This document shows positions 16,392-43,507 of a DNA stretch of 64,000 bases, piece after piece (the first letter of the stretch is position 1; each line of letters opens with the position of its first letter). The position numbers and the translations under genes were made by a program. Origin of the DNA: Scatophagus argus (lineage: Eukaryota > Chordata > Actinopteri > Scatophagidae); the NCBI RefSeq assembly GCF_020382885.2, contig NC_058511.1, positions 20,016,504 to 20,080,503 on the forward strand. Reading direction: 5' to 3'. Below the pieces are notes generated by a model. That model did no database searches. It was given only the letters and a program-made list of their open reading frames with translations, and was not told the origin of the DNA.

Positions 16392-16593
16392 TTCTACGGA
16401 CAAAAACTACCTGCTATTTTAACTGAGGTAAAATGGTGCTGGAAAAGCTAGCAAGCTACGGTCTGTTTACAACTGGTTGCCATAGTAACGACGTTAACAG
16501 GGATATGTATTACACGACTGTGTCCACTAGAATGCGCTGTAAGTCAGTCACGTTTCTGTCGTTGTTCCTGAAGGAAGGTTTACACATTATTTA

Positions 16594-17058
16594 CGCACAC
16601 TATATAAACAAAAGTATTGAGACACCATTACGTCTTTGCGGCTGTGGCAGATTCCGCTGTTATGGTTAGGTTTTTCCACCGGATTTTGGAGTGTTTCTAC
16701 ACAGGTTTTTGATCGTTTGCGGGTTCGGGCACTGGTGTTAGACGAAAAGGCCTGGCTCGCGGTCTCTGTTCCGATTCGTCGCGAGGGTGCTTGATGGGGT
16801 TGAGGACGGGGCTCTATGCGGGCCAACACACATCCCCGCCGCGCATTTGTAGCGGTGCTACGGGGGAAGGGGGGCCTTCCCCGGAGTGTTCCTACAAAGT
16901 TCGAAGTATAACATTGTCCAAAATGTCTTGCTATGCTGAAGCATAAAGATTTCCCTTCACTAGAGGTAGGGACCTAACCTAACACCTGATAAACAGCTCC
17001 ACACCAGCATGCAATAATAGAGAGGTTTGTCCCAATAGTTTTGTCTATATAGTGTAAT
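16594..17058. mobile_element. Tc1/mariner-type MITE upstream of CFAP206
   Basis: The ends are imperfect inverted repeats of about 30 bp: the left end starts ACACTATATAAACAAAAGTA, and the right end reads inward TACACTATATAGACAAAACT. They enclose about 400 bp with a GC-rich centre (16690-16880) and no transposase frame. It sits about 200 bp upstream of the CFAP206 start codon. The family is common in fish. Confidence 0.8.
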
Positions 17059-19181: not shown

Positions 19182-22100
19182 TCAGAAGCACTTCCTGAAG
19201 ACGATCTGCGGCCCGTACTCCTCGTACTCTTCCCGACTGATCCATGCAGAGCTGAAGGTGGGCAAGTTGGCCAGCACCGCCCCTCCACTCCACACTGAGA
19301 AGTCTCGGTCACGGGGACTGGTAACACGAACAATTTCAGCCATGTCAGTAGAAACCAGTCCTTTGATTTCAGCCTGGAGCCGCTCAGGCATGCCAGCCAG
19401 CAAAGTGTTCCCACCTTCAGCAAGAGATTAAAAAAAAAGAAAAAAAATTTTCAACTGAAACGTGGTCGAATAAAAATCAAAGCATAAAGCAAGCTGTGCT
19501 TTTAATTTACAAGGACGTGCTGCTTGGAGCCCTCAGACCACTGTGTAATGGCTTAACTAAAAAGCACTAGTTACCCGACAGTACAATGTTTCCCAGGAAG
19601 AAGCGCCGCAGGTCCATGTCTGAGCTGAGGATTGACTTGAAGATGCTCTCGTGCATTCCACAATGGTCCCGTCCAATCAGCTCAGGTTTGAAAAGAATTT
19701 CAGGGGCCCTGGATGAGCAAAGAGGTGATTGGTAGACATCTTAGCAGTTGGAAGAAGAAGCTGACTAATTTTGGCATTGCTTTCAATTGAATTCAATTTT
19801 ATGTCAGATTTATGTAGCGCCAAATCAAAAGTCATCTTATGACACTTTCCAAATAGAGCAGGTCTAGACTGTACTCTTTAATTTCAGTTTTAAAAGAGAG
19901 AGGCACAGCATTCCCCCATGAGCAAGCACTTGGTGACAGTGGTGAGGAAAAACTTCCTTTTTAGAGGGCAGAAACCTCAAAGCAGACCCTGGGTGGCCAT
20001 CCTTCAGCCTAATCAGTCATCATTTTATGTACAAGACAGGAGGGTTGCAGTGGTATCTGTTATTAGTTGCACCCACATTTGGTCACAAACCAAACTACTG
20101 GACAGCCTGATGACAGTACTAGATAGAAATAAAAATGATTACAATTCATCATGAGGATGATGCAAATATTATGAAAATTCCATCCAATTATTATTGAAAG
20201 GGTTCACTTCAATCAAAATTTCAATCTTGTGATGGCACTAGAGGAAAAGACAGGATTCATCCGTTTTCATGGCAATTCATTAAGGAAAGGAGGAAAAACA
20301 ATGACTGGAAGTGTTGCAGCTCTTTCTTGAAAGATTATGTCTTAATGCAGAAAGTCAATATCTGCAAAATTAAAACCCAGTTCTTGACATGATCTCTTGA
20401 AACAGTTTTGTAAGGCTGAGCTTTACATTCCTTATGGCTGTTCTAAGCTAGGCTTCTTTGTTTCTTTGCGACATCATAGCAACATCAATTCCACAGGTTA
20501 GAGCTGAATTTCTTCAGTACATCAAAAAGCTGTTTCAGTCTAGACCAGCTGGAAGTCTGCCATTGCCAGAGCCATGCTGAGAGCATGTTTAAAAAGGACA
20601 ATAAGTGGTTTTAGGAGCAGCTGGGGGGCCTTTTACATTTCTCCTTCTGTACTGATAATACAAATGAGATAAGATATGTTACTTAGTGAACAAAGGTTGC
20701 CCTTTGGACAGTCAGGCTAGCTGTTTCCAAAAGAGTCCAGTCATTATGCTCAGCTAGGCTAACCACATGCCAGTTACAGTACAACTCCACACTTAAACAG
20801 TGGTGGTTATCATAGACCTCTGTTTGCTTAGTGTATTTTGCATGTCATTTCCAGCGCAGAGCTACTGAGATTTATTATTAAAACATACACACAAGGCATA
20901 CAAAACACGAAACATAACAGCTGACAAAACTCCAGCGTAAATTCAGATTTCCTTCAAGAAATAAGAATTTAAGAAATCCCGACTGTCCGATAAAACAGGA
21001 CATGATGCGCAGACGGGCGGCACCGTGGTGCAGTGGTTAGCACTGTCGCCTCATAGCAAGAGGGTTCCAGGTTCGGATCCCGGACTGGAAATAAGAATTT
21101 ATTTATTATTAATCCACTAATGTGGATGTGTGCATGTTCTCCCTGTGCCTGCGTGGGTTTTCTCCAGGTACTCCGGCTTCCTCCCACAATACCAAAAACA
21201 TGCACATTAGGTTAATTGGCTACTCTACATTGCCCCTAGGTGAGAGTGTGTGGTTGTCTAGTAGTCAGCTGGGATAGGCTCCAGCTCCCCCGCAACCCTG
21301 ACGGATAAGCGGTATAGAAAATGGATGGATGATGCGCAGACAGCTACCTGAACCTCTCCGTGCTGAGCGTGACGACCTGTCCATCTGGCATGGTGTAATG
21401 CATCTCTCTGCTGGACGTACCCCCCGCGTTCAGCTCAGCTTCATAGTTGAAAGCCACACAGCAGCACTTCTCTTTTATCTCCCTCACTATCTCCATCTCT
21501 GCTGTGGTGCGCATGCACACTCCTTGTTCCTGCAGAAGCTTTAAGCACAGGCACAACAAAACGGTCAACTGACGGAGTGAAGGCGCGGGACATTACTACA
21601 GGTTCACTTACGGTACATCTCAGCAGGACATGTTGATACACCAAAAAAAAAGAACAGACACCACAGTTCATGATCAGCAGTGCTTTTCAGACAAAGTGAT
21701 GGCTTTTTGTCACACAAGGGCTGCATCACTGATGGATTAAAAACTGAGTTGAATCCTTAACAGCAATTTTTGCTCGCTCCACCTCTCACAGTAAATCCTC
21801 TTTTACATTATCTTATCAGTTTCGTTCTGCTGCAGTCCTCACATTAATACAATAATATTCATTTGAGACCTGCTGTGATGTCAATTTTACAGGAATGTTA
21901 TTAGGACAAACCTTGTATGATTGCTGTTGTGACTTTTGCAGTAAAAGTGACTCAGGTGCTTGTTCATCCCTGAATCCTCTTTGCAACAGTAGCTAAACAA
22001 TCACTTAAATGAGCTCTTCTTTTTATTTATTTTTTGACACAAGCTGCAGATTGGAGGCATCACCCATCACTCACTCCCCAGAGAATGAATACCTTTTTAA

Positions 22101-25100
22101 GATGCAGTGTAACGTCTACACCTGCCAGAGGGAAGCGCTGCACTGCATGAGGTAGACAGTATCCGTCAAACACAGGTACGCTGTGGCTCACTCCGTCTCC
22201 AGAGTCAAACACCACACCTACAAATGAAAAAGAAAGCATTATTAGCATGTTTTCTTTAATCCAAGACGAACCTTACAGAACGCTATGCCAAGTTTAACTT
22301 CACATGACTTATGGCTTAATTAAGTATTCATCCATGAGTATCTATCCAACACAGATCCATTCATAAAAAGCCACAGGTTGATGAAATATTACCAGTGTAT
22401 CTCCCTGCTGCATAAAGTGCCAGCACTGCCTGCATGGCCACGTAGGTGAAGGGAACACTGAAACACTCAAACATGACCTCCACCATGCGCTGACGATTCT
22501 CCAAGGGGTTCATGGCTGCCTCAGTCAGCAGAACTGGGTGGTCCTCTGGATCCACACGCAGCTGCTGGAATGTGTGATGCCAAATCTAAAAGAGTACATT
22601 TACAAGTTAGTGAAGGCAACAAGGAAATTTATAGTCACAAACCATTTATTCTGCATCTCAGAAATGTGGGCAGGTATACCGAACTGCAAGCAACTGCACT
22701 CAGTGACCACATGGAAGGAAACCAAAGAAAAGTTCAAGCATGAAAGTGCGAGGCTGCCTTCACTATAGGCAGCTACATAAACAGGTGAATGTAACAGCCT
22801 CATCAATTTATATATTGTTTTTAAATGTGCTCAAATGAACAGCTCATTCAAAAGTAAAAATTTATCTTTATCATTATCTACTCGTCCACACGCTGATGGA
22901 ATATCAGGTGAAGTTTCTTTAGTTCACAAAACATTTATATTGCAGTATTCTCCTAAAAAACTGAGGAGGCTGGGGACCTAACAGCTAAGCTGATCTTAAA
23001 CAGATCAATAAATAAATAAATACATAAATAATAAAATGTACCCATACAGCTCATGAGGCATAATCCAAGTCTGCGATTGACCTGAGATCCTGAGTGATTT
23101 GAGGATGTTTAGACCTTTAAGCTGAAATCTTCACCATAGCTGCTAAGCTAAAAGTGTAAGCGTGCACCCCATGTGAAGTGGGAGCATGAGCTCAAACACA
23201 GCGGCACATGCTTGATGTGCCGCTAGACGAAGTCAACGAGAACTCACAATCACTGCATACCTCAGTGCTTAAGTTTGCATGGCCTTCCATCAGAAGGGGT
23301 GCATGCTAGTGTTTTTAGTCTTAGATATATTTTAGCTAGATTTTGGCATAAGGAGTGTAAATAACATCTTTTCAAATTTTGTCATAATCATTGTTATCAT
23401 TATTTCACATTTTAAATTTACATTTAAGAGAATGCTACAACACTTTTTTTTCTGTGAAGCTCCACAAATATTTTGTGAACTATGAGGCTTTCCTTACCTT
23501 CCATAGGCATGAGGGTGAGTAGAAAAATCACAGAATTTTCATTTTTGAGTGAACTGTTCCTTTAAAGCATGACAATACAGTCTTTGCAGAATGCATGATC
23601 CTGTGTGTCAGGAATGCATCAGCGCCAAAAGAAGTGCAGCGAATAGCACAGAACAAAAACACCTCATCGACATATTTCCTATGTGGTACTGGGAGTTCAG
23701 ATCATTCTGACCCACCCATGAATAGAAAAAGAAACACATTTAAGAGCAATGATCAGTGACATCTCATCTCACGTCATACCTTTTCCATTTCATCCCAGTT
23801 CCGAATGATCCCGTTCTTTATGGGATGCTTCAGAGCCAGGACCCCCCTCATGTGCTGAGCCTCATGTCCAATGTAGGTGTCCCTTTCAAGGTTACTATTC
23901 ATTATTTCCTGCAAAGACAAAACGTCCAATCAGAAAGACCAGCTAGAAGGAAAGCCGCATCACTATTAGAATGCTTTTTGTAAACAATAATTGTAATAAA
24001 ATAAGGATATGCCCTTACCTCATATTTTGGCATCCCAATAATTGTTGGAAATATAACCTTTGGAAGATCTTGATCTGCAAATCCTGCTTTCATTAGACCA
24101 GAGCCTGTATCCAGTACAATGGGGATCCCGAAATCTGTCATCTGCAAAAACATTAAGAAAAACAAATCAAATTGAATCACATGCTGTGTATGCTTACAAG
24201 TGTTTGTGCACAATGCGGTTCTCAAGACTGATTAAGATTTATTCTTGTAGGTGACACATGATGCTGAGTGATATTTTTTCCTGCAATATGTAATATTTTG
24301 GGAATGAAACAATATTCCACATAGCCTCCACATGACAAATAATTTTAGTCAAATTTCACTTAAAGAAATGGTCATATATAATCAACATTGCAGGAAATAA
24401 TCACTTTTTATGTTCCAAGAGTAAGAAGAGAGGACTGATACTGAATCACACATCTGTATGTTATATGTAAGAACTGATCACTTGTTTAATTTATACTCCA
24501 AGAACTACATCCAGTCTTAAGAATGTGTGCTCAAAATGTCATGCAGCAGTGACTTAAGGCACTGGATCTTTTTGGTGTGCGGCTCTCTCTCTCTCTTTTC
24601 CAGCTTTGATTATCACTGCTGCATCATATGTGCACTAACTGATCTCATAATTACTAATTACAACTGTGTAGGCTATGAAACTTAAACCTTATTCTTCGAG
24701 TTCTAGCCCTGGTGGTTTCAAATGTACTTCAGAGTAGTAAATAAAATAAAAATGTAATCCAAAGCAGTAAGTATTGCCTACTTTGTAGACTTAACTACAA
24801 GACTTAATTGCTTCCATTGGTCTCGTGAAATGCAGAGCTGGAGTCAGAATGTGGTTAGGCTGGCTTAGCATAAAAACTGGAAGCAGGGAGAAACAGCTAC
24901 CCTGTCTCTGTTAAAAGTGAAAAAATATGTCTCAACATGCATCTTATTTGTTCAACCTTCAGCGTCTTTCTTCGGAGGGAAGTGCACTGGAATCTCTTAA
25001 TTTCAACTCTAAATATTCACAGTAAGCCTACCAGGTTTGATATATCTTTTGGTATCTACGTATGTACAGATGCCAAACCTGTGCCTCCTGCTTATCTGGC

Positions 25101-28100
25101 AATCTCTGTAACTAGAGATGCTGTAAACAAGTATTAGCCAGATGGATAAATTGGCTGTTTGTGAAGACACAAGTACAGCATGCAACCCCTTCTGAAGATT
25201 CTGTTTATTAACAAATAAGATAAGTAGTAATTAGTAAGCTTTAGATGTGTTGGTAGGTGTACTTTTGAACTCCAAACTGAGCCAGGTTAGTCATTTTCCC
25301 CTGCTTCCAGTCTTTATGGCAAGCTAAAATACAGACATCCTGATCCTGAACTTACATACCACATATAGACTTGAGTTTTATCTTAATTTTTGCTGCACTC
25401 TTAGAAGGGAGGAGAATGAGAATATTTCAAAAAAGTTCTATATCTTAAAAAAAAAAAAAAAAAAAAAAGGTTCTGTGCTATTACTAAGTTTCCAGAAGAG
25501 AACTTGAGGTAAGTTGAATTTAATGATGGTGAGATACACGGAATATGAAGGCTTTCAACTGCAGGAAGAACACAACATTCAACATATTACAGTACAAGGC
25601 GTACCTTTCTCACACTAATGTTTAGCTGGGCCTGAATCCCAGTTGACCCAGAGCCTGATGTCCTCATGTTCTCAGAGTCTTCTTTCTCCTCATCTTGTCC
25701 ACTGGGGTCCAACTCCAGAGGCTGGTCAGGATGCAGCTGGTGTGCCGACTGTTGACGTGGGCACTCATCTACCGGAGATGAAGTCTGAATTTCCTCCGCT
25801 GGGCGTAAATCTATCTGCAGCAAATATTCCGGCACCTCTGATGCACACTCTTTAGCTTTAGTGGTTGTTTCAGACATATGGTCTAATTCCACATTGCATT
25901 TCTCAGGAAGTGAATGGTTATTATTGTTATTGCTGTGTTCTTTTACGTGCGGATTGAGAGCCAAGTTGGGATAGATAGCTGAAGTCACGTTCACCAACGG
26001 TGCATCAAGTGGTCCAAGTGGTTGCACAATACTAGGATTCTGACCAGCTGAGGACAGAGCTGGAATCTGTAGCTCTGGGGAATGACGAGTTTTAGGTTCT
26101 GCAGGGCTGTCATTTGCAGGAAGGAAAGCCTTCCTCGGCTTAGGCACAGGAGGGTGGTGTGATTTCCCACCTGGGTCAAACGCTCCATCACCTGGCTTCA
26201 TTTCAGGGGTTATAGAAGCTTCTGGTTTGCATACGGTAGCATGTTCACCAGATATGTCAAATTCTTTCACACTGATATGTCCCTGAGGTTGGATTCCCCC
26301 TTCTTCAGGAGGTTCCCTCAAAACAGAGGTAGCTCTATTCAATACCGATGACTCGACTTCAGAGCAATGATCCTGACATTGGGAAGTCTGGAAGGCTTGT
26401 GGTGTAGCCTCTTTGGCAACATCACGACCCATTGCTGCTGGAATACATTGAGTTTTACAGATCTCCTGAGCCTGAGAATTAATATGAATCAAAGGTGTTG
26501 AACGTGTTCTCAGCGATTTGTTACTGCTACCCGACAAAAGATCATTACAAAGTGCTTGGTCCTCTTTATTCACAGTTCTAGCTTTCTCCATTATAGAACA
26601 TTTTACAACCTTTCTTGCTCTGTCCTTGTGCTTCTTCACTTTGCACTCTTTGTCCAAACTCTTCTTGAGCTTATCCACTTCCCTCTTCTCCTTTTCTAGT
26701 TGAAACCGAAAAGCCTCCTGCTCTTTGCTCATACTTGACCGTGTGCTTGTATCCGAAGGTTTGCTTTCACAAAGTTCCTCATTGGGTTTTGTGTTGCAGC
26801 GTCTGAACGTATGGATCTTCAAGTTCTCCTCCATGATCAGCTCATCCAGGACGTGGACTTTTCTTAGCTCCGTCAGCAGATCTGGCCTGCGATAAGAAAC
26901 TAAAGTATCTGCTCCTGTGGTAGCGTCAGTGCAGTGGCTGTCGTCGTCAGATGCCTTAGTTTCACTTGCAGATGCAGTTGATCTGGGTTCGCTGAGGTTG
27001 CCAGATTCTGCAGGTACGAGGTAATCCTCGAGGCCAAGAACACCAGCTTCGACCAGCTCACTAGATGACATCTTTAAAAATGAGCAGAAGCATAATGAAA
27101 AACACTGCAAAGCTACACATAATGTTTAACTTCAAAAGATAAACTAACATCAATATGTATGCATTGCTAAAGACACTGTATCACAGCAGTGTCTTTTCCA
27201 CTGTGATTGCCCAGAACAATGCCTGTAACCATGGCATCTCTTCACATTAAAGATTAAGAAAATTTGCATTAAAAAATAAACTAACTAAAAATTCTATAAA
27301 AATTAGACTAAAATATCACTGGTGAAAACTCAGGTTTGTTCACTTAAAAGAGACCTAATTCTTTTTTCACAAGGCAAAACATTTAATTTCTCCCTAGTGG
27401 AAATGTCTCATTTAATTGTAGTCAGTGAACTTATATACAAACTCAGTTACATATATCAGTAATTTGGTTTTGACATGAGATAATTGAAATTAGACTCATC
27501 CACAATGAAAGTTTGACTAATTGCAATTCTAATCAGTGAAATCTACAACTCAGTTCTCATAAGTGGAAATGTCATTTGTTATATCAACAATCCATTTCTC
27601 AGTTTGTACAATTGTTCTTACATTATAGATATAAATGTAATTCTAGATGCCTAAAATCCAGTTCAGACTAGTTCCTTATTGATATGTTGGCATGGAATTG
27701 TAAACTAGAAAGAATGTCATTTCAGATCTAAAACTGCATTTCAATATCTGAAATAAAAATAACTGAAAATTATATTTATAAAAGTCACAATTATACTGAT
27801 GAGAAAGAGATCTATACTTCATTTTAGTAGTTGTGAAATTTCATATATAATAAAAACCAAAAAACAAAACATTTCCTCTGGTCAAAATGGCAACCCAACT
27901 GAAATGGGTTGTTAATATGTTGGACTTATCAGAAGGACAACTATTGATATCTGAAATGGGAAGTTACATTTCACTAGTCAAAATCTTCTCAACATGTGAC
28001 TTATTCTTATTTTTATTATTATTATTATTATTCTTATAAAAAGAATTTCTGATATTTACAACTATATTCATGTCAAAATGTTACATTAAGTTAGTTATTA

Positions 28101-31100
28101 AATATAATTGGGGCTTTCATGGTTAAAAAAAAAAAAACATTAAAAGAAAAAAAAAAAATAAAAAAGTACCACCTTTAAAAATGCAAAGTTTGCTCAGAGA
28201 TTAGGAAAAAGGGAAATGCTGAGCCCGATTTCTAACTTATTTGCAATATGTAATAACTGGCCTCCCCGCATCGTAGTATACACCCTTGAGTTGATCTGCA
28301 GCATGCTTAACGTACCACTCTGAGCTGATCCTCACTGTCCCACAGCCACTGATTGTGCTGGTCCTCAGACCTCAGCAAAGCATCCAGTACAGCCTCTTGA
28401 GCCAGAACTTTTTCTTCTTTCTGTAGAGCAAGACGTTTATTAAGACATTAAGATCCATCATTGGGCTCTCGTAACTCATAATGGGCATCTGATGTCATAT
28501 TTAACGTTTTATGGATCGAAGATTATCACTAGTTTCAGGCCTGCATGGTAACAATCCATCCGTCTACTCAAACAGTGCATTACTTGCCTCCAGAATTTCA
28601 TCAGCCCTGTCAAGGATCTTCTCCACTTCCATTAAACCCTCCTGTTCTTTAACATCCCAGTCCTTTAGGGAGATATCGAGCAGACTGAAGAGGAAAAAGC
28701 ATGAAAATGCCATTGATTTGAGGCAAACCAATCTCACAGTACATACATTATCGAAATTCTACAAACAAGTCAATATTTGAGGCTGTTCCACTTGGCCTCC
28801 TGGAGGAATAAACAACTGATTTCTGCTGTTATCTGGAACGATTTACCAGCAAGAGGAGAGTCTAGAGATACCTTTTATTAAACTTTTGGGATTAAATAGT
28901 AGATATATCTTGGGTCTTGTTTCTCAACCTGTCTGCAGCAGCGAGATGTGCTATATAAGGCTACTGTAATTAATCACTCTCTGGTCTTGCTGACTGGATG
29001 GGGAAGTGTACTTTACTTCATTAATGTAAAAAAGACAGGGGGAAAAGAACATACTGGAGAGAAATAACCGTGTCTCTGATGAGCGATGAGTTCATCAGAG
29101 GCGACATACCCGGCGGTTTGGGGTGAATAAGCACAAATCCACCCATGGGCAAACTCACTTTGGTAATGCAAGTCAAAAATTTGCTTTGCTGTCCGTGTGG
29201 ACACAGGCACAATTTGAACTGCAGTAAAACTAGAAAGTAAGTTAACACTTCATTATCATTCGCAAGTCATCATATACTGATGCTTTGGGTTGATACACAG
29301 GTAATATTTGCCAGAAGTTATTCCATTTTTCCAGGACATAGACTGGTACTAAACAAACTCTGTACATGTGTTTTTTTGGGTTTTGTTTTTTTTTTTTAAA
29401 GAAGGAACAGCCTCTGCCAAACTGAATTCAAAGAGATGCATTACCCATCAACAGAATCCTGTTTCTGGTCATGAAGGTCATAAGAATCCCACAGGAGAGT
29501 GGGGATCCCCTCTGTGGTGTTGATGGACTTATCTCGTCCATCTGTAATGGTGCTGGACAGGATGTTGCAAATGGGGCTTAGTTCAGGATCCTCCAAACTG
29601 CTTTGTGAGTGTAACATCCAGCTGCTGCTCTGTAGGCCTCTGGATTCCATGCTGTTCAACACCTCTGTCTGTGTGGGTTGATCTCGACACCTGTTGGACT
29701 CGTTGGTGGTAGTAGAGGAGTTATCACAGAACAGCAAGTCTCTCTTTTGCGGTGTTGGGTTCTGTGTAATGGTAACCGTGTAAGAGTTTTCAAGATTGTC
29801 TACAGGTAAGCTAAGCCAAGGATTGCTGGGTAAAGCAGCTGTGCGCTTCACTTTGATCTCAAAATTGAGGGACTCCACGGTAACTTTAGGGATGATCTGG
29901 ATGCTAGCCCTTGAGGTGTTTCCCACAGAGCCAAAGTCAAACTCCTCTCTGTGATCATCAGAATCTGAAACACTGCAGATATTCTCTTTGTGGATTTGAT
30001 GCTGGATTAAGACAGGTCTCCCAGTGTCCCTGGTCCCAGTTAATCTAGACAGACCTTCCACTCCTTCCCTCCCCCCTGAGGCCTCCAGCTGGCTGCTCCC
30101 AGCTCCATCAAAGCCTGAGTCGAATGAGCTGAGGGAGGGGGGTTTGCCCTCAGCTGACACCATCCCGGCAGCTGCAGTTGAAGCAGATGTTCTGCAAAGA
30201 TGGGTTGCTTCCTTACCACTTTCACATTTAGTGAAGTCTTTAACATCCTTAGATGCTCTGTTTGCAGCACTGTCAGCAGAAGACTGATTAACATAGCTGC
30301 TCCGCAACAGCTCATACTGCCACTGTAAGGCCAGCTGGAGGTGACCAACAGCCACAGGTCCTGAGGACGTTAGCAGTTTCCTCAAGGTCATGCACCTAAT
30401 AAATAAAAGATTAGCAGAAAATATTCCATTTAACATTAGTTTGTCAACAATCTGACCACCTGGATAGGAATTTCACACGATTTCCTTTTTACAATTGTAG
30501 ATGATGTGACCATATTTTGAGTAAGTGGCACAGACGGAACCAGGTACTGTATCATTGTATGCATATGCAATTTTGTCACAATGTCATAAACTTTTCTGGA
30601 TAATTTGAGAAACTGAAGCAAACTTGGAGGTTCAGAAGCTTTCAACCATTTTACAAGGTAAAACAAGTATGAGACAACACATGAGAAGATAACACAGTGA
30701 GGACTGGATTTATTCAGAGAGCTTTGCGTTCTCAAAATGCAGGACTACTTGTGGTTCCCAGATTCTTCAAAAGTAGATTGGGAACCAGAGCCTTTAGTTA
30801 TCAAGCTCCTCTACTATGGAACCATCTTCCAGTTTTGGTCCAGGAAGTGGACACCCTCTCTACATTTAAGAGTAGACTAAAAACTTTCCTCTTTGATAAA
30901 GCTTATAGTTAGGGCTGGCCTAGCCTGGCCCCTAGTTATGCTGCTATAGACTTAGACTGCTGGGGGTCCTCCCATGATGCACTGAGCTCTTTCTTCCTCT
31001 CCCTCTCCTTCTGCACACAGTCATGTCCCATTAATGCATATCACTAACCCAACTTCTTCCCTGGAGTCCTTGTGCTTTCTCGTCTCGCAGGTTCCCATCG

Positions 31101-34100
31101 ACCGTGGTTGGAGCTCCTGTTGCGGTCCTGCTCGAAACTTACTGCGATTACTACTGTTTAGTCATAATCTATTTATCTATTTTCATCATAGTACCTCCTG
31201 TATACTTCATTATCATTATCTACAGTTCCAATATTTCTAGTATTATTACTGCTGCTATGCATCTCTGCTTGTTTTTTCTCACCTGCTCTAATTGGAAAGT
31301 GTCATGAGATAACTTGGCTCTATATAAATAAATTAATAAACTGAACTGAAACTGAATTGAATTGAAAGCCCCTAGAGATTATGTACTTTGATTTAAAAGT
31401 TGTCTTGTGTAGTGTAGTGTAGTGTAAATGTAGGGCCAAACACACTAAGATTTTACCTTTCTGTAAGAAACCACTATGAGATGACAAATACAAAGACATA
31501 TATACACATGTATATGAAATATAAAACCTCTTTGTGACGTGCAGCTCAACTCACCGCTGAGACATCTGCTTGCCTTCCTGCTGGACTTTCTCATCTGGGA
31601 TAACATTAGACAGGTGAGCCAGATGAAGCAGCTCTTCCCTATCTGGAGGGGGATTCTTTTTCAGGAAAGTGGAGATTTTGTGTTTCCATGGAGGGATCGT
31701 CCCCCAGTTCTTCTGCCTCTGTGTGGGATCACGGTCTCCATTAACATTTGACAGCAGCTCCTGAAGGAAGTTCTCACTTAGGACCAGACTGTACCAGCTG
31801 CTGGCCTGTAAAAGGGACAGGAAATCATACCCTGCTTTATCTTCTATTTTACTCTAAATGGGACCATAATTTAGAATAATCATGTGTGTTAAAAAAGACT
31901 TAAAATTAGTAATGATTGCTGTAAAGAGTTTTGCCCCCAAGCCTGTTTAGCTGTACGCCATTGCCTGTGATTAACTGTCTGCATTCCCAGAGGAGCTTGA
32001 ACTTATCAATAAAGGAGTAAGCTGCTCATATGTGAAACACTGCGGCCACAGGAGGGAAAACGAGGCCAGATATAATTATGTGTTTTCCGAGTTGGTGAGT
32101 TCAGGTTCCACTTAGGCTCAAGTATGGCGCATGTACTGGATAATCAATATGCAAAGAAAATGACAGAAGTCGTTTAAAAGTTAAATAATCACTGACAAGT
32201 TGTAAGAAAGTAACTAAAAAAACTAAAACAGAGCGAAGTAAGAGAGTGATCCAGCAGCAACCAATCAACCACACAGTGCCACACAGAGATGATTAAACAG
32301 TTGCACAGCAATGCCAGTGCAGTTCCATTAAGTGCCCTAGTAACAGTGAACCAGCATGCACAAAAGCAGAACTAAATATTTTCAGATGCTGAGAGCTTGC
32401 CTTGCTGTAGTTACGATGGTAGCTTGAAACCGCTCTTAGGGTTTGGAGAATGAAGTGCACGGCACAGTAGAGTTTCTCCTTCAGCCTCTCCAGATCCAGA
32501 GCCCAGTGCTCCCTTGTCTGACCATCAAAGGGCAGGATCTCTGCTAACGTGTGGATCACATCTTCAGCACAGCGTACGAGGGCCTAGGAGGTGACCGGTG
32601 GGGAGTGAATTAAGGACAACAATGTAAGGCACTACTTACAGGAACAAGAAATAGGACAGGATATAGATTAACCACCAATATAATTAGTACTGCTGATAGA
32701 AAATAAGTATGGATCAGAGTGGACATGTAACTGATATTAGATGTCCAGTCTAATCAGGTACACTTCCAGGACCTTTTATGAACCTAAATTGTGAAAACAA
32801 GAAGAAACATGAGGCAAAAAGCAAAGAAACACATCAAATAAATACGTACCATAGCAGGAGTGTGAACAGATGCCTCAAATTCAGACACTAACATCGCTGC
32901 CTTTGCAGCATCCTTGGCGATCTCTATTTTGTAAGCCTGGAGCTTTTCTTGATGAAGAGTTTTGATCTGTTCTGTGATCTGTAAGGACAAGTAAACACAT
33001 TCAGTTCATACAGGTAGCCTGCCATTTTAACCAGTTATGTTGGTATAAGAAGGGTACTGAAACATTTTAAGAAAATAAACATGATAAACTATTGCATTTT
33101 AGCTGTGGCCCAGTTCATGTTCATATTGGCTTTTTACAAATAAGTTATTCAGACCAGCAAGTAACTCATTCATTCACAGTTTTGGTTATGTCATTGTGCA
33201 TCATCAGCACTGCATGGAGTCAAGGTGATTCTACAATTTGGAGACTGCAACTCAACTCTTCTGAATAATGATGACCATACAGACAAGCTTCTACCATAAT
33301 GTTAAAGAAGGAGACAGTGACAGTGTGGTTGCCTCATTTCACTTGACTTCTCTAAAACATGCACCCCTTCAGATCACTTCCTTGATAATTCACAGCTCAA
33401 AAATGGATAGTTTGGCTTTTTAGCACCCAAAGGCATAAACGCTTTAGTTGTGTCCAGTAACCCACACCTGCAAAGCATTCTCTCGCAGCTGGAACACCTG
33501 CAGCTGGGAACGGGCCTTGGAAAAGGCTTGCTCCCAAAGCAGCTCCACTTTTTCCACAGCTGCAGTTATCCTGGAAAAAAAAAACAAAAAAAAAAACAGA
33601 ACAGGTGGCGGTTTATATTTAGTATAGCATACTGTATGCCATTTAGTGGTTACTTCATCCCAAACACCCTAAAATACAAAAATAAGTTATGTTTGGGTTA
33701 CGGCTTTTATAAAATGCAAAGATGTCCTTGTTAAATGGATGAAATTGAGTGCCTTAAACTGTGACATTTTAAATGCTATTCAGCTTCACAAACAATTGGA
33801 GCGCTAGCTCACTGTGGGCCACAAAAAACAAACAGTTTTTGGTCTAATTTAATGAGTTTAACTACCATAAAGAGGCAGTTGTGATTGTGTAAATGAACAT
33901 TTCTCAGCCAAAAAAAACACCATGCTGGCACTGTTGTTTAGTTGTGTAACACAGGACCAATGGAACATTCCAATTCAATTCAATTCAGTTTATTTATATA
34001 GTACCAATTCACAACAAAAGTCATCTCATGACACTTTCCAATTAGAGCAGGTCTAGACCAAACTCTTTAATTAAATTGTAATACAGAGAGCCCAACATTC

Positions 34101-34228
34101 CCCCTGGGGAAGCACTTGGCAACAGTGGTGAGGAAAAACTGCCTTTTAGAAGGCAGAAACCTCGGAGCAGACCCCCGACTCAAGATGGGCGGCCATCTGC
34201 CTTGACCAGTCGGGTTGAGAGAGAGAGC

Positions 34229-34282
<54 letters not shown>

Positions 34283-35572
34283 ACACAAGCAGAGATGCAT
34301 AGCAGCAGTAATAATACCACAAGTACTGGAACTGTAGATAATGACAATGAAGTATACAGAAGGTACTATGGTGATTATGACAGCAATATTAGTAACAGTA
34401 ATAATGGTAGTAGCTGTACAGAGTAGTAACAGAATTAAAATAGATTATGACTGAACAGTAGTAATCGCAGTAAGTTTCGAGCAGAACCGCAGCAGGCAAC
34501 ATTCCAGTATGGTATGTGTGGGAAATGTTACTACAGAGGCTTAAGGTAAAGGGATTTATAGTCTTATCTTTGACTGAGTACTGTGGGAGCTGACTGCCTG
34601 CAGTACCAGAGAGCTGCCTTAAATGTATCACCTTACAGTTGTAACAAGCACGTTTTCTGCTGCATAAATGTAATCATGTGGCCACTGCAGCACTAAATTT
34701 GACTGAAAAATATCAACACGATTCATCCACTCTGCAGGGAATAGCAGAGTGGCATGAAATCACTGGGGGGGGGGGACTGTTCTCAACTGAAATACTGCCA
34801 GTTTTCAATGATGAATGCTTTTTATCCATGTTACAACCATAGCTCACACTATTACAATTAAGACACGCACACGCTTCACTTATAACATCGTACAGCATCC
34901 ACTTTCAGTTTAATTCCTCAGAACCTGTTTTTTTTTTTTTGTTTTTTTTTTAAATCTATTAAAAAACATTAAGTGGTTTAAAGAAAAACGAAAAATGACT
35001 CTACCTGCTGTGGTTCTGAAGCATCTCAAAGGCAGTGTTAGTGAAGAGGGCAGTGCCAGCCATGGCCTGGTAACACGGCTCCTTCTCAGGGTCACGCAGC
35101 TTCTCCACCACACGCTCACAGTGCCTCAGCAGCTCATCCAAGCCCAGCTCCCTGCAGACAAAAACAGTAATACTGATACAGGTTAGTCAGAGGTGTGGTA
35201 CAAAAGATAATGCACCATGTACTATTTTGTTGATAGGTTTTAGAACCTGCAGTCATGGTGCACGTGTTAAACTGGAGTGAAAAACATTTTCACGCCAAAA
35301 CAATTTCACAGCAATAATTTCCTGCAGCCATCGTGGTGAAAAAGATTCTTCTTTAACTCATAATTTAGAGCAATTTTCAATGGCTATGGCTGCAATGCTC
35401 TTCTGCCTTTTAATGAACTTGTGAGGAATTCAACTTCCAAATATGTTCACATTCAAGTGGTTAAATCCCTGAGAAGAGTGTTACAAAACTGGCAGCAATT
35501 ATCATGATCATGTTTCCCTCCTTTCAAGGCTATGCTGAGGAATAACACGAGCAGACAATAAAAGCGTTCAGA

Positions 35573-35610
<38 letters not shown>

Positions 35611-38600
35611 CAGTGACCAGCTTGGTCTACAGGAGAAAGAGCACAACAACTGGGAGCCTGACCTCCTTAGCTGCTGGAACTTGGCTTCGTTGGTGGAAGT
35701 GAAGAGCTGGAGCTCAGTGAAGGTGGAGGGCAGAGGCAGCCTGGACAGGGCATGCAGGGTGGAGATACATGACGGCAGCCGCTGGACCACAGACAGGAAC
35801 TCTTTGACAAACGCATCGATCTCCTGCAAAGGGCAGCCCAGCCAAAACCCAACAGGGGAGTGATTATTATTATTACCTTACGGCGAAGATTTACAGTTCA
35901 CACCAACTTTCATGAGAATTATTACAATTATAACTAAAATTGACTGAAGTATTTAAGTATTTAACATAAAAATGCTGTTGCCAGGTTGCAGAAACAAAGT
36001 CTCTGAAGCAAATGTTTCTGGGCAGGACCCCCAGACACCCACCTCACTTTGGCATCAAAATCTTTTCTAATGACATCCCAAAGTCTCAAAGTACATTAAG
36101 CATGGGTTGTGTTGTACGAATTTTACCCACTTTTCTTACAAACACAATTCTGAGGACGAGTCCAGCTGAAATAATACAGCTCTTATTAATGCTCAGTAGA
36201 AGCTGATTTGGTGTTTTAACACCCACAACCTGCATCCTAAACAGGTCTGCTATAGACAGAGAGCTGCCATGATTAATAGATACTGTCATGTCCAAATGGC
36301 CCAGTTGAACATGACTGAATGTATAATGTAACAGAAAGAGGGGCTCCTTTCACTTGCTAATAAGGTCAGCTGATTACACGAGGCATTTGCGCAAGCTTCA
36401 CCAAGGTAACAGACAATAGACTGAGGCCGCTTGGACGGGCCTCATGAACGCATTCACAAACACAAACATCTCCTGACCGAGTGAGCCGAGCACGTCCTCA
36501 ATCACAAAGAGGCAATATTTAGTTGGAATAAATCATCTGGCTGTAGTACTGTATGTCAGATAAAACTGCTCAGACGTAAGCAGAATAACAGTGTGTATTT
36601 GTGTGTACACAGACACACACACACACACACACACTCCACAGCTGCTAAAGAGAGCAGGACAATGTTACTTTGTGTTAAGCCCTCTGACTGATCACAAGAC
36701 AGCTTCATAGGTTTTTGCTCTCAGAAAGATACACAAACAGAACTGTTCAGAATGTTATCATCATTTACTGCATATACTTACTGAATACTGACATCAACCC
36801 TGCCCATGATAGTGTATTTGTCAAATTATTATAGGATGTTTTGCCAAGTGAATGGAGGGTAGTGATGCAGAACTCACTAACTGGATCTTTATGTATACTG
36901 TGCCTCATGCAAGAACATACTTGTAATCTTGCTATTGTACTATATATAGTATTTCTTCTACTTTTCTATTGTTTATCCTTATTGTATATAGTACTTTCTG
37001 TGTTCTTGCTGCTAGATGTCTGTTTTGTACTTGAGAGCAAAGTCTAACCAGAGTCAAATTCCTTGTCTGTACACACAAACTTGGCCAATAAAGCCGATTC
37101 TAATTCTGATCTTATCCTTGACCTCTCAAATTTTCCCGTCCGCTTTGTTTATACAAGGGTTCCAGGTCAGATTCAGAAAACCCTAACTGTACATACTTGG
37201 GTTAAATCACTTGTTTAACCTTGATGAATTTCTGTATGAGGAAGATATAATAAATGTATAAGAACTATAGTAAGGATATTTGTTTGGCAAATTTGTCACA
37301 AAAATATCAAAACGAAAAGAAAAAAAGCTTCTGAATTTTGTTTATTTTTATTTTAGATAACTGGAATATCTGCAATTGTAAACTGCTTAAGTCACATTTT
37401 ACAGATTTACATTTTTTAATTAATACACTGGGGTTTTTTGATAATAGATAATCAATAGATTAAGAAAACATTTTCAAAAAAAAAAAAAAAATTAAAAAAA
37501 TACAAAATTTTACCTTAATGAAGGCCACCCAACTCTGATGACAGTAAATAAGGTAGCCACCCAACTGTGCTGGTAGCTGACTTCTGTCAATATAGTTTGA
37601 CAGCTCCGAGATTTCTTTCAAAAGAACTTTCTACAAAAAGATAAGAACAGTGTGAGATCTACTGAGGTCAAACCTAAAACAACAACATGTCAGTGTGCAG
37701 CATATGTTGTTTCATTCACCTTTAAAGAGGGAGTGTAAGCTTTGGACGGAGCCAGGACTTTCAGCAACAGTTTGACAACATCCTTCTTCTTGGGCTGAAT
37801 TATATACACGCTGTGGACCGTCCGCTTGTGCAGCTAGAAGACAGAGAGGTGGACAGAAAACTTCAATGTAACACTGAACGGAAAAAAAGTTGTGTTGCTC
37901 GTGCCGCTGCGTCAGATTGAAAAGGAGTAATCTTGTTTAGTATTTCACATGCACGTAAAGAGGAACTCATTAATACAGATTTAAGAACGGTCAAAATCAA
38001 AGCAGCAAAGACAGGTCAAGCTCCAAAGACAATGGACCCTACACTAACTGCAATACAGACAAGAGCATGTTTTTGTTTGATAAATTCACACATCTTTTAA
38101 TCACACTCCAGGTTAGTTAGTCCCTGCGGAGACAGTAGCAAGGAAACCCCCCTCTTCCCCCAACAGGAGGAAACCCTGAGCAGGACCCTGCCCGCAAGGA
38201 AGAACCACCCCGCCGATAGTCAGTGCACAGAAGAATGGCAGGCAGACGTCAACAGTAGACATTGGGTTGGTCATGGATCAAATTCTGATGACAGTCGTTT
38301 TTGGGGCATTTTAGAGACTCAGGGGGAAAAAAAGGTTTGTTTCTTTGATACACCATTTAAGCACAATATAAGCTAAATAAGATGACAACTACAGTTCTAC
38401 AAAGGGCCCCTCTACGATACACACAGGACCTGCCTTTGTTGACAAACTTAAGTCGTAAGTGGTGACAAGTTCCTTAAACTTGCAGTAAATAAAATGACAC
38501 AAACTCACTGACATTCAGTGAGGCTTTTTCTTTTAGGGTCAGTGAGGGGTTGGTGGGCTCGAGGTAGTTGGGCAGTTGGCCCATCGCTGTCCGTTGGTGA

Positions 38601-38968
38601 GAGGATGGCTGCACATGTGTTAGCTGTTATTGTTAACATAAATCCATCAGCCCTGGAAAGCAAAACAAGTCGCATCAAGTTCTGATGAACCACCGCAAAC
38701 AACTTAAGGCAGGCATTTTTCCTCTAACCCAGCAGTTTGTAATTACTAAATAAAGTGGGCTACATGTCGGCATGCATGTTGACATTGGGCCAGGCAAATA
38801 AGACCACAAAAATTATACAAAAGTTTTTTTAATTAAAGGGAGAGCAGTTGATCTAAATGCAAAATGCAGCATCCCCTACATAGCTGTGCTCATTTAATGT
38901 AACTAAACTGAGGCTTTTCTATTAAATAACCAAGCATGTGACCAGATATTCATGTGACCCCCTCCCCT

Positions 38969-39017
<49 letters not shown>

Positions 39018-40078
39018 AATTCCACTACGAGCATAGACATGACGCACTTGGGATTGTACTTTGGCTACTTTGAAGATCAGTCCAAGCTGAAGCTCTTTGA
39101 ATCAATAAAACAAAGTTGAGCCCATCACAGTGAGGAGCAACTCTTAAGTTCTGACCGCACGTAATTCAGACAGAACCAACAACAGAGACACAAAGCTGCC
39201 GTTTCACAAAGCTCTGCGCCACACATGCTTTCCTCTAGTGAACTTATGTAATACTTTAACTTGCAATATGCAAGTGTGTTATATAAAAAAAACAAAAAAA
39301 CAAAACAAAACTGGTCACACTTTCCTGTAGCATCCTGCTGTCCTCAGTGTGGGACAGATTTCTGTTGTTCGAGTTTTGTTTTTCTTTGAACACTGGAAAT
39401 GGAGCTAATTCCAGTTTAAAAAAAATTAGCCCTTCTTGTTGGCAAATGGAAAGAGCTCTGTGTGCTGTGTTTCTGATCACAAAAGTGTAAAATGTTGAAA
39501 GTACTTCTTGCTGCTTTTTGGGGTGGCCAGCACACAAGAGAACAGTATGCAGTGCAGTTTTAAAGACAGATACCTTTACAGCAGTGATGTGATAACCAAA
39601 GAGACTGCAAAGCCCCGATGCTTCACTCGGATTATTATCTTTCATCATTTAAATATGCCTCTTTATTAACATTTGCATTAATATGGGCTGTGCCCTGGGG
39701 GCCAAGGGGTTTATGAGGCCCTCTATTCACTTATTTCATTACCGTTGGCTCCCTACTGTCCTCGGTCTAAGCAGAAAAAGACCCCCCAAACAACCTTTAA
39801 ACACAAAACTTTCCAATACTGGTCCGGATACTTTATCTACACTGTTTGGACCTCCTGCTGCGGTCCTGCTCGAAACCCACTGCGATTACTACCGTTTAGT
39901 CATAATCTATTTTAATTCAGTTACTACTCTGTACAGTTACTACCATTATTACTGTTACTAATACTGCTATCATAATCACCATAGTACCTCCTGTATACTT
40001 TTTATTATTATCTACAGTTCCAATATTTCTAGTATTTTTACTGCTGCTATGCATCTCTGCTTGTGTGCTCTCTCTCCT

Positions 40079-40118
<40 letters not shown>

Positions 40119-42686
40119 ACCGGTCAAGGCAGATGGCTGCCCATCTTGAGCCGGGGTCTGCTCCGAGGTTTCTGCCTTCTAAAAGGCTGTTTTTCCTCGC
40201 CACTGTCGCCAAGTGCTTGCTCAAGAGGTAATGTTGGGCTCTCTGTATTAAAATTTAATTTAAGAGTTTGGTCTAGATCTGCTCTAATTGGAAAGTGTCA
40301 TGAGATAACTTTTGTTGTGAATTGGTGCTATATAAATAAACTGAATTGAATACTCTGTCCTGAACAAACTTCAGATGATCATCAGTATATTCACACATAC
40401 AGAATGGCCTTCATGTGAGCTGAAAGGGGGGGGGGGGGAAACATGGTGCTGTACCAACAGTGCAAAAAACAAACTGCAATGTATTGATGATTCAAGGATG
40501 TAGTGGTTTTCTACTTCAACTACTCAAAAGAATTTTAAACAAACTTCAATGAGCTTCTGGGACTTGAATTAAAAAAAAAAAAAAAAACACTCCTCAGAAA
40601 CTTATCACATGAGAAATGAACTACTTTGTCGTCGGAGTGGAGCATTTAAACGATACCCTCAACACAAACATGCCTGCAAGCTGCATGCTCGCAAGAGACA
40701 AGAGAGACTCTGTCCCTTAACACACTGCATGATTATCACAAAGATAACTGAAAATGTCAAGTCAGTTTTACAAAGCGCTCTGCATCTTATACCACATTGT
40801 GAAACTCACATATACTGCTGCATCAGGGTTTCTTTTGTACCAATACACCAGTTGAGCGATTTTAACTCAATTTTATTTACTCCGTAATATTGGTTTCTAT
40901 CACAAAAGCCCAGCAAAGGTTGGGCTCTAGAGTGTTCCTGTGGTATATCCACCAAAGGAAATTTTAATTGGGTTTAAAAAAAAAAAAAAAAAAAAAAAGC
41001 TGTTTTGTAGTTTTGAACACGGTGTAAATGCAGACACAAAACAGCACAGACATTAAAGCAGCGATGACGGATGTGGTCCCACTTTGTGACAAGCTGCAAT
41101 ATGTCCAACTGGCTGCTCAGCCAATATGGACATGGATCTGGGTGCAGCTAGTCTAGTCAGCACTCTCAGCTGTGTTGGAATCCCTGCAGCCAAAAGGCAC
41201 TAAGGCACTTTCCCCACAAACTCCAAACTTGTTTTGTTACATTTTTTTGTTAAAGCTAAGTTTCTGAAAATGGTGCCTGATTAGCTCATGTGCTCAACTG
41301 ATAACTCACTCTAGATTCTTTTCGTGACCTAATCTGAGGTAAAATGGGCACTCTTAGAACATGAAAAGGTGGTTGAAAAAATACTTCAGGTCAATCATCA
41401 TACTTCTGACTATGTGATACCAGTGTGAAGTGGACAGTTTGAGTGGGACAAAGGGTGCAAGGCCATGGAGAGGTGTCATACTAACTGTGCAGAAAGCTGC
41501 ACAAGATGGAAACAAACCAGAAAAAGAACATTTTTGCAAAAATCAAAAACACCATTTGATTTTGTTTTATGTAGTACTGCGGAAATCTGGGTGTCTGCAT
41601 GTGGTGGACATCTAGTTTAAGAACAATCACTGGAAACATGCTACAGTATCTACAGCAGCACCACACGGTGCACCTTGCCACAAAATACCTCGAGCAGAAG
41701 CAGAGTCTCCGCGATGAACCTGGTCGTAGGAAGCGACGCATGCCTCAGATCAGCCACCACTGACACCAAACTCTCCTTCTCTTGCTTCTTGCTGTTGGGA
41801 GACAACAGTCCAACCATGAGTACATATTTCACAGCCACACACACACACACACACACACAATAAGCTTCTCTGACACCACATACTTGTGCAGACACAGAAA
41901 GTAATTTATGAAGTCCACCACTTCTGCTTTGCTGAGTTCTGAGGAAAGTTTGAGTTGTCCACCCACTGGGAAAATAATCAAAGGGCAGCCATGTTGATCG
42001 AAGGTACCTGTACAGACAGATAACACAAAGGAAGTTAAGGTCATTTTAGTTTAGCACATCTACTGGAATGTAAGTCAATTCATTTTGGCGTCAGTTTTGC
42101 CAGTATTTTAATCAAGAAACATTGTCACCATCTATCACTTGCAGTGATGCAGTGCAGTGACTCTAGCTTTGAGATATATTCTTTTTTATTCTTAAAAAAA
42201 GTCTTAATTAGCACGTCCCACTCCAGGCCAAGCTTGCCCCTGAACGCACCGAGAGCCACTACTGTAGCTACATGTAAAAGCAGTAACAGGCAGAGCAGTG
42301 TGGATTAATAGCTACCAGGGAAGAGCACCGCTCCAGAGTTGAGCACATGATCAGCAGGCAGAGGCGGGGAGGGGACGCACTCCTGCACCGACTCCTGGAC
42401 GTCTGAAAGCTCTGTGGGAAATGATTATTTTCACTGAAAACACACTCCACAAGAATTTCCAACACATGCTACACGACCGCTCGGTCCAACAAATTCCTCT
42501 CCGCCTCTGAGAAAGGCTGGCTGAGGAACGGCAGCTTATAAAGTGATAAAGACATACGCAACTCAAAATTGTCCATTCGCTCTATGGTGATCAGTGGGTT
42601 AAACAGTTCACAGCCCCTTTAGCCGCGGCGGATAAAGAAGCTGCTCGCGTGCACTTGTCTCTCCTACCTGTTGCGTGGCGGATCAT
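19182..42686 (-). CDS. Predicted Sec14/spectrin-like/actin fusion protein
   Basis: Twenty-three minus-strand exons join in phase into 5286 nt (1761 aa): 42686-42668, 42402-42316, 42007-41884, 41791-41689, 37833-37720, 37630-37514, 35823-35663, 35151-35005, 33570-33468, 32978-32850, 32583-32401, 31805-31555, 30395-29445, 28684-28588, 28420-28316, 27071-25605, 24141-24019, 23908-23780, 22585-22393, 22217-22093, 21538-21348, 19708-19575 and 19414-19182. Residues 1-190 are Sec14-like, about 190-510 helical and spectrin-like, 510-830 disordered, 830-1386 coiled coil plus disordered, and 1387-1761 a full actin-like domain. The N-terminal half resembles KIAA1755/PLEKHG4 but lacks a DH-PH module. Two donors are GC (32400, 28587). 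The first Met follows an in-frame stop in the 5' UTR. If exon 13 is not spliced, a TAA at 29441-29443 ends the first part, so two or three separate genes remain possible. All parts are real coding sequence; single-transcript status is inference. Confidence 0.62.
19786..20010 (-). repeat. CR1/L2-type LINE 3' end
   Basis: It reads 'ttcaattgaattcaattttatg' followed by 'agcgccaaatcaaaagtcatcttatgacactttcc' and 'gagcaagcacttggtgacagtgg'. This is the inverted 3' UTR of the LINE family found at 30680-31360. It lies in the actin-domain intron between exons 21 and 22. Confidence 0.8.
21015..21331 (+). mobile_element. tRNA-like SINE with target-site duplication next to a splice donor
   Basis: It runs from GGGCGGCACCGTGGTGCAGT to GCGGTATAGAAAATGGATGG. 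Direct repeats ATGATGCGCAGAC flank it (21002-21014 and 21329-21341). The tRNA-like head contains GGTTCGGATCCCGG. The right duplication copy ends at intron position +7 of the donor of fusion-gene exon 21 (exon end 21348), leaving the donor intact. Internally about 40 bp after the head do not match other copies and partly resemble 20957-20971. Confidence 0.88.
24845..25335. mobile_element. MITE with long imperfect inverted ends
   Basis: The left part reads GCTTAGCATAAAAACTGGAA, and the right part inverted reads GCTTGCCATAAAGACTGGAA. Similarity continues through 'gcaggg(g)gaaa'. The two arms are about 60 bp and enclose about 380 bp without coding potential. It lies in the intron between the coiled-coil exon and the first actin exon. 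Confidence 0.7.
25605..28684 (-). other. Coiled-coil and disordered block (exons 14-16)
   Basis: Exon 14 (97 nt) and exon 15 (105 nt) encode a helix with [18 protein letters not shown] and [13 protein letters not shown]. Exon 16 is a single 1467-nt exon (489 codons) starting exactly at a Met codon. It holds a helical segment ([19 protein letters not shown]), a highly charged coiled coil (about residues 1010-1053 of the fusion, [19 protein letters not shown]) and a basic KKHKDRARK cluster. A long disordered tail follows, with a proline-rich SH3-ligand-like PPVPKPRK. No catalytic domain was recognised. It ends AGAAAG|GTACGC in phase 0, directly joinable to the actin exons. Confidence 0.78.
27290..28000. 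repeat. AT-rich internally repetitive sequence in intron 15
   Basis: Related short units recur in direct and inverted form, such as 'agtggaaatgtc', 'cagtgaaatctacaactcag', 'gaaattagac' and 'tatctgaaat'. The units are diverged. It looks like a palindromic DNA-transposon derivative, but ends were not defined. Confidence 0.35.
30680..31360 (+). mobile_element. 5'-truncated CR1/L2-type LINE with ORF C-terminus
   Basis: A plus-strand frame (30697-30912) ends with [19 protein letters not shown], then [16 protein letters not shown] and a stop. This is the typical C-terminal end of fish CR1/L2-clade LINE ORFs. About 430 bp of 3' UTR follows, ending in AATAAA/CTGAATTGAATTG-type short tandem repeats as CR1/L2 elements do. 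It lies antisense in intron 12 of the fusion gene. It explains the other 3'-end copies at 5441, 19786, 33969, 39840, 50100, 54676 and 61801. Confidence 0.82.
33969..34510 (-). repeat. CR1/L2-type LINE 3' end with (GA)n expansion
   Basis: Inverted 3' end beginning 'caattcaattcaattcagtttatttatatag'. It runs through 'ggaagcacttggcaacagtgg' and the 'gcatagcagcagtaataatacc' block to 'gcagtaagtttcgagcagaac'. A long GA run (34211-34281) lies where sister copies carry CT runs. Confidence 0.83.
34211..34281 (+). repeat. (GA)n microsatellite
   Basis: Near-pure GA dinucleotide run inside a LINE 3' end. The matching (CT)n of the opposite-strand copy is at 40077-40112. Confidence 0.92.
35571..35611 (+). 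repeat. (GT)n(GA)n microsatellite
   Basis: Compound dinucleotide run immediately 3' of fusion-gene exon 7 (in its intron). Confidence 0.9.
36606..36634 (+). repeat. (CA)n microsatellite
   Basis: Pure ACAC run in fusion-gene intron 6. Confidence 0.9.
36890..37112 (+). repeat. LINE-like 3' tail
   Basis: It ends in 'aaattccttgtctgtacacacaaacttggccaataaagccgattctaattctgat'. This arrangement is typical of fish LINE termini with an AATAAAG-type motif and a TCTGAT repeat. Confidence 0.6.
38115..38235 (-). repeat. Second LINE-like 3' end family, fragment
   Basis: 'ggagacagtagcaaggaaac...gaggaaaccctgagcaggaccctgcccgcaaggaagaacc' matches, in inverted orientation, the repeats at 50764-50998 and 62820-63075. 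Confidence 0.6.
38966..39015 (+). repeat. (CT)n(CA)n microsatellite
   Basis: TCTC run passing into a long CACA run in intron 4 of the fusion gene. Confidence 0.92.
39840..40350 (+). repeat. CR1/L2-type LINE 3' end
   Basis: From 'cctcctgctgcggtcctgctcgaaac' through the 'gctgctatgcatctctgcttg' block and a CT run (40077-40112). It then runs to 'ttggtgctatataaataaactgaattgaat'. Best-preserved copy of this 3' UTR in the window. Confidence 0.85.
41833..41861 (+). repeat. (CA)n microsatellite
   Basis: ACAC run between the two Sec14-like exons 41689-41791 and 41884-42007. Confidence 0.9.
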
Positions 42687-42919
42687 CTCAAATTCCTCAC
42701 ACGCGGCTCATTTCCAGAACAGGTTTTCTTTTGTGTAGCGTCAAACCAAACTGTTCCTTTACCGTGTATCCAGAGACCAGTCCTAATTTAAAACAGTGCT
42801 ACAGCACTGCAGACCCTGTCCGAGCGGTCCGCAGCAATAGTTCGCCGCCTTTCTCCGCCATGTTGCATCCATTCAGCAGCGCCTGTCCGAGCTGACCCTC
42901 CTGCCTGGAGGTTGTTCGG

Positions 42920-42931
42920 CTCATTTATAGA
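42920..42931 (-). promoter_or_regulatory. TATA-like element of fusion gene
   Basis: The minus strand reads CTATAAATGAGC about 235 nt upstream of the predicted start codon, within GC-richer sequence. It could place a start site near 42890. Only motif and position support it. Confidence 0.35.
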
Positions 42932-43507
42932 CTAGACTAGAGAGGGCGGAGGAACCACTGAGGGGGACGGAACACAACTGCGCCAGTTTATCGAGGTCTA
43001 ACCGGTCGGGTGCTTACAAAAAGAGACTGTAATTACTGATAAATTATAAACCCGTCAAGTCTATAACTTGTGAACGTAACACAAAAAATATCTTTAAAAT
43101 CTTTATGAACTGGTTTGATCTTAAATTCTGGCTTCATATTTACATAAAGCCGTCTACATGTCCCAATAATGGCATATTTTTGGAATTTAGCCTGCAACAA
43201 AGACAAGAAAAGTAAGATAAAAACACACTTGTAATTTAATACAAATCATCTTCCATACGTCCCGCCTCCACTAGTACCTGTCAGAGACCGGGAACACAAC
43301 ATACTGTATATAAGAAGGAAAGGCTCAGAGGTGCATTTACACTGGCCTGTTTTGTGTGTTAAAAAAGTGCAAATATTTGTCCAAATTTGAAAAAAATAAA
43401 GATCTTTAAAAAAGGCTTCTAGTTTTGACTAAATCAACAGTGACTGTGGTGCCATCAGCAAACAAACTGTGCCTTTATGTGAGTATATGCTGTCAAATGG
43501 ACTGGTG

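Follow-up and report, generated by a model that had tools for sequence, protein, structure and literature searches.

A conserved, uncharacterised fish gene joining a Sec14/spectrin-like half to a divergent actin-family domain

POTE-actin is a beta-actin retrogene product acquired in primates (PMC7073761). In that account it is a longer protein with a complete actin in frame at its end, and its partner consists of ankyrin and coiled-coil parts. The gene studied here lies on the minus strand of a 64,000-nucleotide stretch of the Scatophagus argus genome (NC_058511.1, positions 20,016,504 to 20,080,503), which is called the window, and it has a Sec14/spectrin-like half followed by an actin half. 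A preliminary description of the locus likened it to POTE-actin and proposed a separate origin, which proved apt. Unlike the primate retrogene, the fish actin half has seven exons with six coding introns, shares about 54% of its residues with conventional actins (e.g. P0233, P0234) and is common to distant ray-finned fishes, and no ankyrin occurs in the Pfam lists. The six introns therefore exclude a young retrocopy like POTE-actin.

Kalirin and Trio have an N-terminal CRAL-TRIO/Sec14 domain followed by spectrin repeats (PMC11630257). The fish protein likewise opens with a Sec14 domain, with likely spectrin-like helices after it, and the Sec14 domain of Kalirin, the best solved relative, is the top fold match of its N half. 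However, its helices suffice for about three spectrin-like repeats instead of nine, it ends in actin, and the precomputed Pfam list of the whole annotated protein (P0001) has no GEF, SH3 or kinase domain. Actin-related proteins (Arps) such as Arp1, Arp2 and Arp3 are separate chains; the fish actin resembles them as a diverged family member with catalytic residues kept, but it is joined to a Sec14/spectrin-like half. The preliminary description saw a likeness of the N half to KIAA1755/PLEKHG4, which is a candidate resemblance. Some N-half models (P0250, P0254, P0259, P0263, P0269) are named KIAA1755-like, puratrophin-1 or DBS by their sources; KIAA1755 is not known to contain actin. The zebrafish KIAA1755 orthologues given in PMC7367351, quo and si:dkey-65j6.2, are other genes. 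A description of a Sec14-actin fusion was not found in the open literature.

Evidence for a single gene

The fusion gene is confirmed as real, conserved and uncharacterised, and very probably this one gene encodes both halves. The single gene first proposed was supported by annotation in many fishes, an unconserved methionine at the joint, cDNA-like contigs and a CpG-poor intron 16. Rebuilt from the sequence, the 23 exons between 42686 and 19182 on the minus strand give one frame of 5295 nucleotides including the stop, or 1764 residues, and the translation is 100% identical to that of the annotated Scatophagus argus LOC124050094 (P0001; "uncharacterised"). All exon phases are compatible and every acceptor is AG; exons 11 and 14 have GC donors and the others GT. 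The joints of the preliminary description at 29445/28684, 28316/27071 and 25605/24141 are exact, but its 1761 codons (5286 nucleotides) had to be corrected, with exon 2 at 42411-42316. An additional 87-nucleotide exon was sought with nothing useful found; the missing piece was exon 2. A TAA at 29441-29443 had been feared as the gene end. It consists of bases 2-4 of the donor GTAA, which after a phase-2 exon always reads as an in-frame stop, so by itself it does not mark the end of a gene.

Proteins with both domains, which the preliminary description had suggested looking for, are annotated across ray-finned fishes. The full-length protein search scored 7980 candidates and gave 189 relatives, and the figures rest on the best 120 of the 189. 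Among these, every named relative is a ray-finned fish and Pfam actin is present in 119/120. The fusion architecture spans perch-like fishes, carps, herrings, eels, bony-tongues, bowfin and gar, and an N-half profile search adds bichirs (P0270, P0271), likewise with actin. Of 186 selected sequences, 135 run through the exon 16|17 joint and cover 60 or more reference residues ahead of it, and 102 are near full length. P0082 has actin, although it was counted as N-only on the basis of the first segment that matched. The second search took only proteins of about 206-656 residues, so that short models are over-represented, and the third was also length-limited. The shortage of tetrapod matches was rejected as a sign of loss, given these limits and the 120 of 189 relatives on which the figures rest. 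The fusion lineage appears very old and well conserved.

Annotation models may copy one another; hence evidence less dependent on them was sought. The residue at the start of the actin exons is methionine in 98/146 relatives and another residue in 48/146, and 43/146 have no methionine from 2 residues before to 5 after the joint. Separate translation of the actin would need a kept methionine, which argues against a stand-alone actin. The methionine is missing in gar, bowfin, bichirs, a sturgeon, coelacanth and a lungfish, and is therefore likely a later teleost feature. Models of the N half alone have their ends spread between residues 422 and 1330, a pattern that would be expected of broken annotation. 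Proteins of 1768, 1706 and 1677 residues (P0013, P0056, P0103) sit on contigs of only 7099, 6289 and 5417 bases and continue over joints 12-22; at 15|16 two of the proteins are a few residues shorter. These 5.4-7.1 kb contigs are most likely cDNA, because S. argus needs 23.5 kb of genomic DNA for the same frame. The observed/expected CpG ratio is 0.67-0.94 around exon 1 (500-base segments starting at 42201-42801) against a window mean of 0.32, and 0.06-0.27 in intron 16, which argues for a single gene. Intron 16 also has in-frame stops after its donor and before its acceptor. A ratio of 0.62-0.68 over exons 21-23 (19101-19700 and 20901-21400) was dismissed as an actin promoter, since it lies downstream of the actin start.

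Some points weigh against a single gene. Zebrafish-derived names divide the locus in two (si:ch211-241j12.4 and si:ch211-241j12.3), P0169 is a 389-residue zebrafish actin-only protein, and many short models with actin but without the N-terminus begin at reference residues 1356-1392. P0169 nevertheless opens with the end of exon 16, so even this protein displays the 16|17 joint. The name si:ch211-241j12.3 occurs in one paper of the open literature, which lists it among grass carp genes putatively under selection (PMC6555922); no mention of si:ch211-241j12.4 was found in the open literature.

The features of the gene are as follows, all on the minus strand, with exons from the rebuild.
42201..43100, minus: CpG-rich putative promoter around exon 1 (CpG ratio)
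42668..42686, minus: coding exon 1, start ATG (equals P0001)
42316..42411, minus: exon 2
41884..42007, minus: exon 3, Sec14 part
41689..41791, minus: exon 4, Sec14 part
37720..37833, minus: exon 5, Sec14 part
37514..37630, minus: exon 6, end of the Sec14 part
35663..35823, minus: exon 7, start of the spectrin-like helices
35005..35151, minus: exon 8, spectrin-like
33468..33570, minus: exon 9, spectrin-like
32850..32978, minus: exon 10, spectrin-like
32401..32583, minus: exon 11, spectrin-like, GC donor
31555..31805, minus: exon 12, spectrin-like
29445..30395, minus: exon 13, final helices followed by a Ser-rich tail, with conserved blocks (rebuild and conservation)
28588..28684, minus: exon 14, GC donor
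28316..28420, minus: exon 15
25605..27071, minus: exon 16, 489-residue linker, unevenly conserved with islands (rebuild and conservation)
24142..25604, minus: intron 16, linker/actin boundary, CpG-poor (rebuild and CpG ratio)
24019..24141, minus: exon 17, actin residues 1-41, first codon ATG
23780..23908, minus: exon 18, actin
22393..22585, minus: exon 19, actin
22093..22217, minus: exon 20, actin
21348..21538, minus: exon 21, actin
19575..19708, minus: exon 22, actin
19182..19414, minus: exon 23, end of the actin (RKCF) with the stop codon
19139..19144, minus: AATAAA, 38 bases past the stop (sequence); AATAAA/ATTAAA words, with 21 sites in 12.5 kb, are too common to be decisive

Composition of the protein

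Both profile and fold place the Sec14 domain of the N half in the CRAL-TRIO/Sec14 family, as had been claimed, and the helical repeats claimed after it are likely spectrin-like. The precomputed Pfam list of P0001 contains only PF00022 and PF13716, and no DH-PH/GEF domain. The linker in exon 16 covers residues 901-1389, and its 20-residue blocks have majority frequencies of 0.28-0.71. It is weakly conserved at 1081-1180 and 1221-1360 (0.28-0.41), while better-conserved islands lie at 961-980, 1021-1040 and 1181-1220, and PPVPKPRK is in the third. The block spanning the 16|17 joint scores 0.63, half of it being actin. The motif P.P.PR occurs in 62/102 full-length relatives and in 1/102 shuffled tails, a contrast somewhat flattered by a shuffled stretch narrower than the searched one.

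PF00022 matches the C-terminal domain with 385.8 bits over residues 7-375 of 375. The domain had been called a complete actin; as a member of the actin family it is complete, but its divergence, a separate 100/100 branch and fixed changes in the D-loop place it outside the conventional actins. That branch has 20 members of the family on one side and 15 actins on the other. The inner order of the family broadly tracks the fishes (lungfish, coelacanth, sturgeon and bichirs, bowfin and gar, teleosts) in a tree drawn from a midpoint root, with some weak forks, long coelacanth and lungfish branches and no Arp or ACTRT included. The coelacanth row carries the source name ACTRT3. The catalytic and phosphate-side residues D11, K18, Q137, D154 and H161 are found in the window and are kept by 96-100% of 145-146 relatives. 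At 18 of 23 nucleotide-cleft positions the residue is the same as in one reference actin, while 303, 305, 306 and 336 differ; cleft identity is 0.85 compared to 0.59 over the whole domain. Some adenine-side positions are altered, and the phosphate-side and catalytic ones are kept. A structure prediction of the actin half had a mean predicted local distance difference test score of 39.2; it was set aside and nothing rests on it.

Alternative readings and proposed function

The best surviving alternative is that one gene yields several products, namely the fused protein, an actin-only form that starts internally, close to where exon 16 ends, and a form with just the Sec14/spectrin half, made when intron 12 or 13 is retained. 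The cluster of model starts at residues 1356-1392 is consistent with this, as are P0169, P0134 and P0145, which begin within exon 16, and N-half models that end at the exon 12 donor (P0266 and P0259, 31555) or the exon 13 donor (P0267, 29445). However, the length limit of the second search favours short models, the joint methionine is unconserved, intron 16 has no CpG-rich stretch, and some actin-only starts, judged by their letters, seem to be translated intron. Several products are thus possible but not favoured. The ends of P0259, P0266 and P0267 may mark intron-retention forms that leave the Sec14/spectrin half alone.

The actin half could also be an ordinary filament subunit; the whole protein would then be built directly into F-actin, and its Sec14 domains would coat the filaments. 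The profile covers the whole domain, the catalytic residues are conserved and the C-terminal RKCF is present in the window. Against this stand the low overall identity and 18 positions at which 97% or more of the relatives carry a residue absent from seven conventional actins, including R39K, H40Y, Q41E, G42E and K61M. Position 73 is N in 90% of relatives and plug position 269 is R in 83%. For the residue lists chosen for the faces, identity is 0.49 at the pointed-end face compared to 0.59 overall (random sets are that low in 6.8%) and 0.44 at the myosin front (2.6%), while the barbed-end face has 0.65 and the lateral contacts 0.56. An ordinary subunit is therefore unlikely.

Two neighbouring genes (si:ch211-241j12.4 and si:ch211-241j12.3), chained by annotation or rare read-through, would fit the two names, the models of single halves, P0169 and the methionine in 98/146, but are very unlikely given the scattered N-only ends, the 48/146 lacking that methionine (bichirs, gar and bowfin among them), the exon 16 end kept in P0169 and other short models, and the 5.4-7.1 kb contigs with the entire frame.

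The locus therefore probably encodes one long fused protein, with a Sec14/spectrin-like half and an actin-related module, of an estimated 195 kDa. From its sequence, the actin half may be a nucleotide-binding module with its own partners. Because the barbed-end face is about average in its likeness to actin, while the pointed-end and myosin faces carry changes, some of them fixed, the C-terminal domain would bind nucleotide and act as an actin-related module instead of an ordinary subunit. A membrane-tethering mechanism is put forward tentatively. The Sec14/spectrin half may dock on membrane lipids, as in Kalirin/Trio, and the linker may recruit partners through its common PxPxPR, SH3-type island. 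Such a protein would most likely serve to anchor actin-binding proteins, or the end of a filament, at a membrane.

Origin, neighbouring features and meaning

The acceptor of intron 16 falls exactly at the actin ATG, as if an upstream gene had taken over the leader intron of an actin gene. The introns at 41/42, 84/85 and 150 may be shared with vertebrate muscle actins; a search of the open literature on actin intron positions found nothing relevant. The coelacanth and lungfish actins of the clade (P0208, P0217) lack the joint methionine, and the letters before the joint may be translated intron. This pattern hints at a possible upstream coding exon there too, although neither protein showed an N half. 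The fusion might have arisen once, before the ray-finned/lobe-finned split, when an upstream Sec14-spectrin gene was spliced into the leader-intron acceptor of an adjoining actin gene, and ever since its product might have coupled lipids to actin in a fixed way or been a template for filament ends; this history is conceivable but rather doubtful.

Just downstream of the gene, a minus-strand frame at 12457-12891 matches Pfam FAP206 (E 1.1e-15), a cilia gene that is presumably CFAP206. A minus-strand frame at 6072-6533 has no Pfam match and resembles the beginning of a gene of the peptidase M20 family, presumably PM20D2. Two further CpG-rich stretches, 16301-17100 and 46401-47100 (ratio 0.74-1.14), are perhaps promoters of neighbouring genes. 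The open reading frames at 5217-5576, 34067-34444, 39906-40349 and 54741-55127 share translated pieces (APRFLPSKR, AEMHSSSN) of a dispersed repeat, copies of which sit within introns of the fusion gene. An Rfam scan gave 0 matches.

The zebrafish-derived names call for a warning, since they treat one locus as two genes, and the fusion gene is open to study in zebrafish. An actin-family domain and a lipid-binding, spectrin-like half appear to have stayed fused ever since bichirs and teleosts last shared an ancestor, several hundred million years ago. Actin is normally a free, highly conserved protomer; the fused lineage would have an in-built link between membrane and cytoskeleton.
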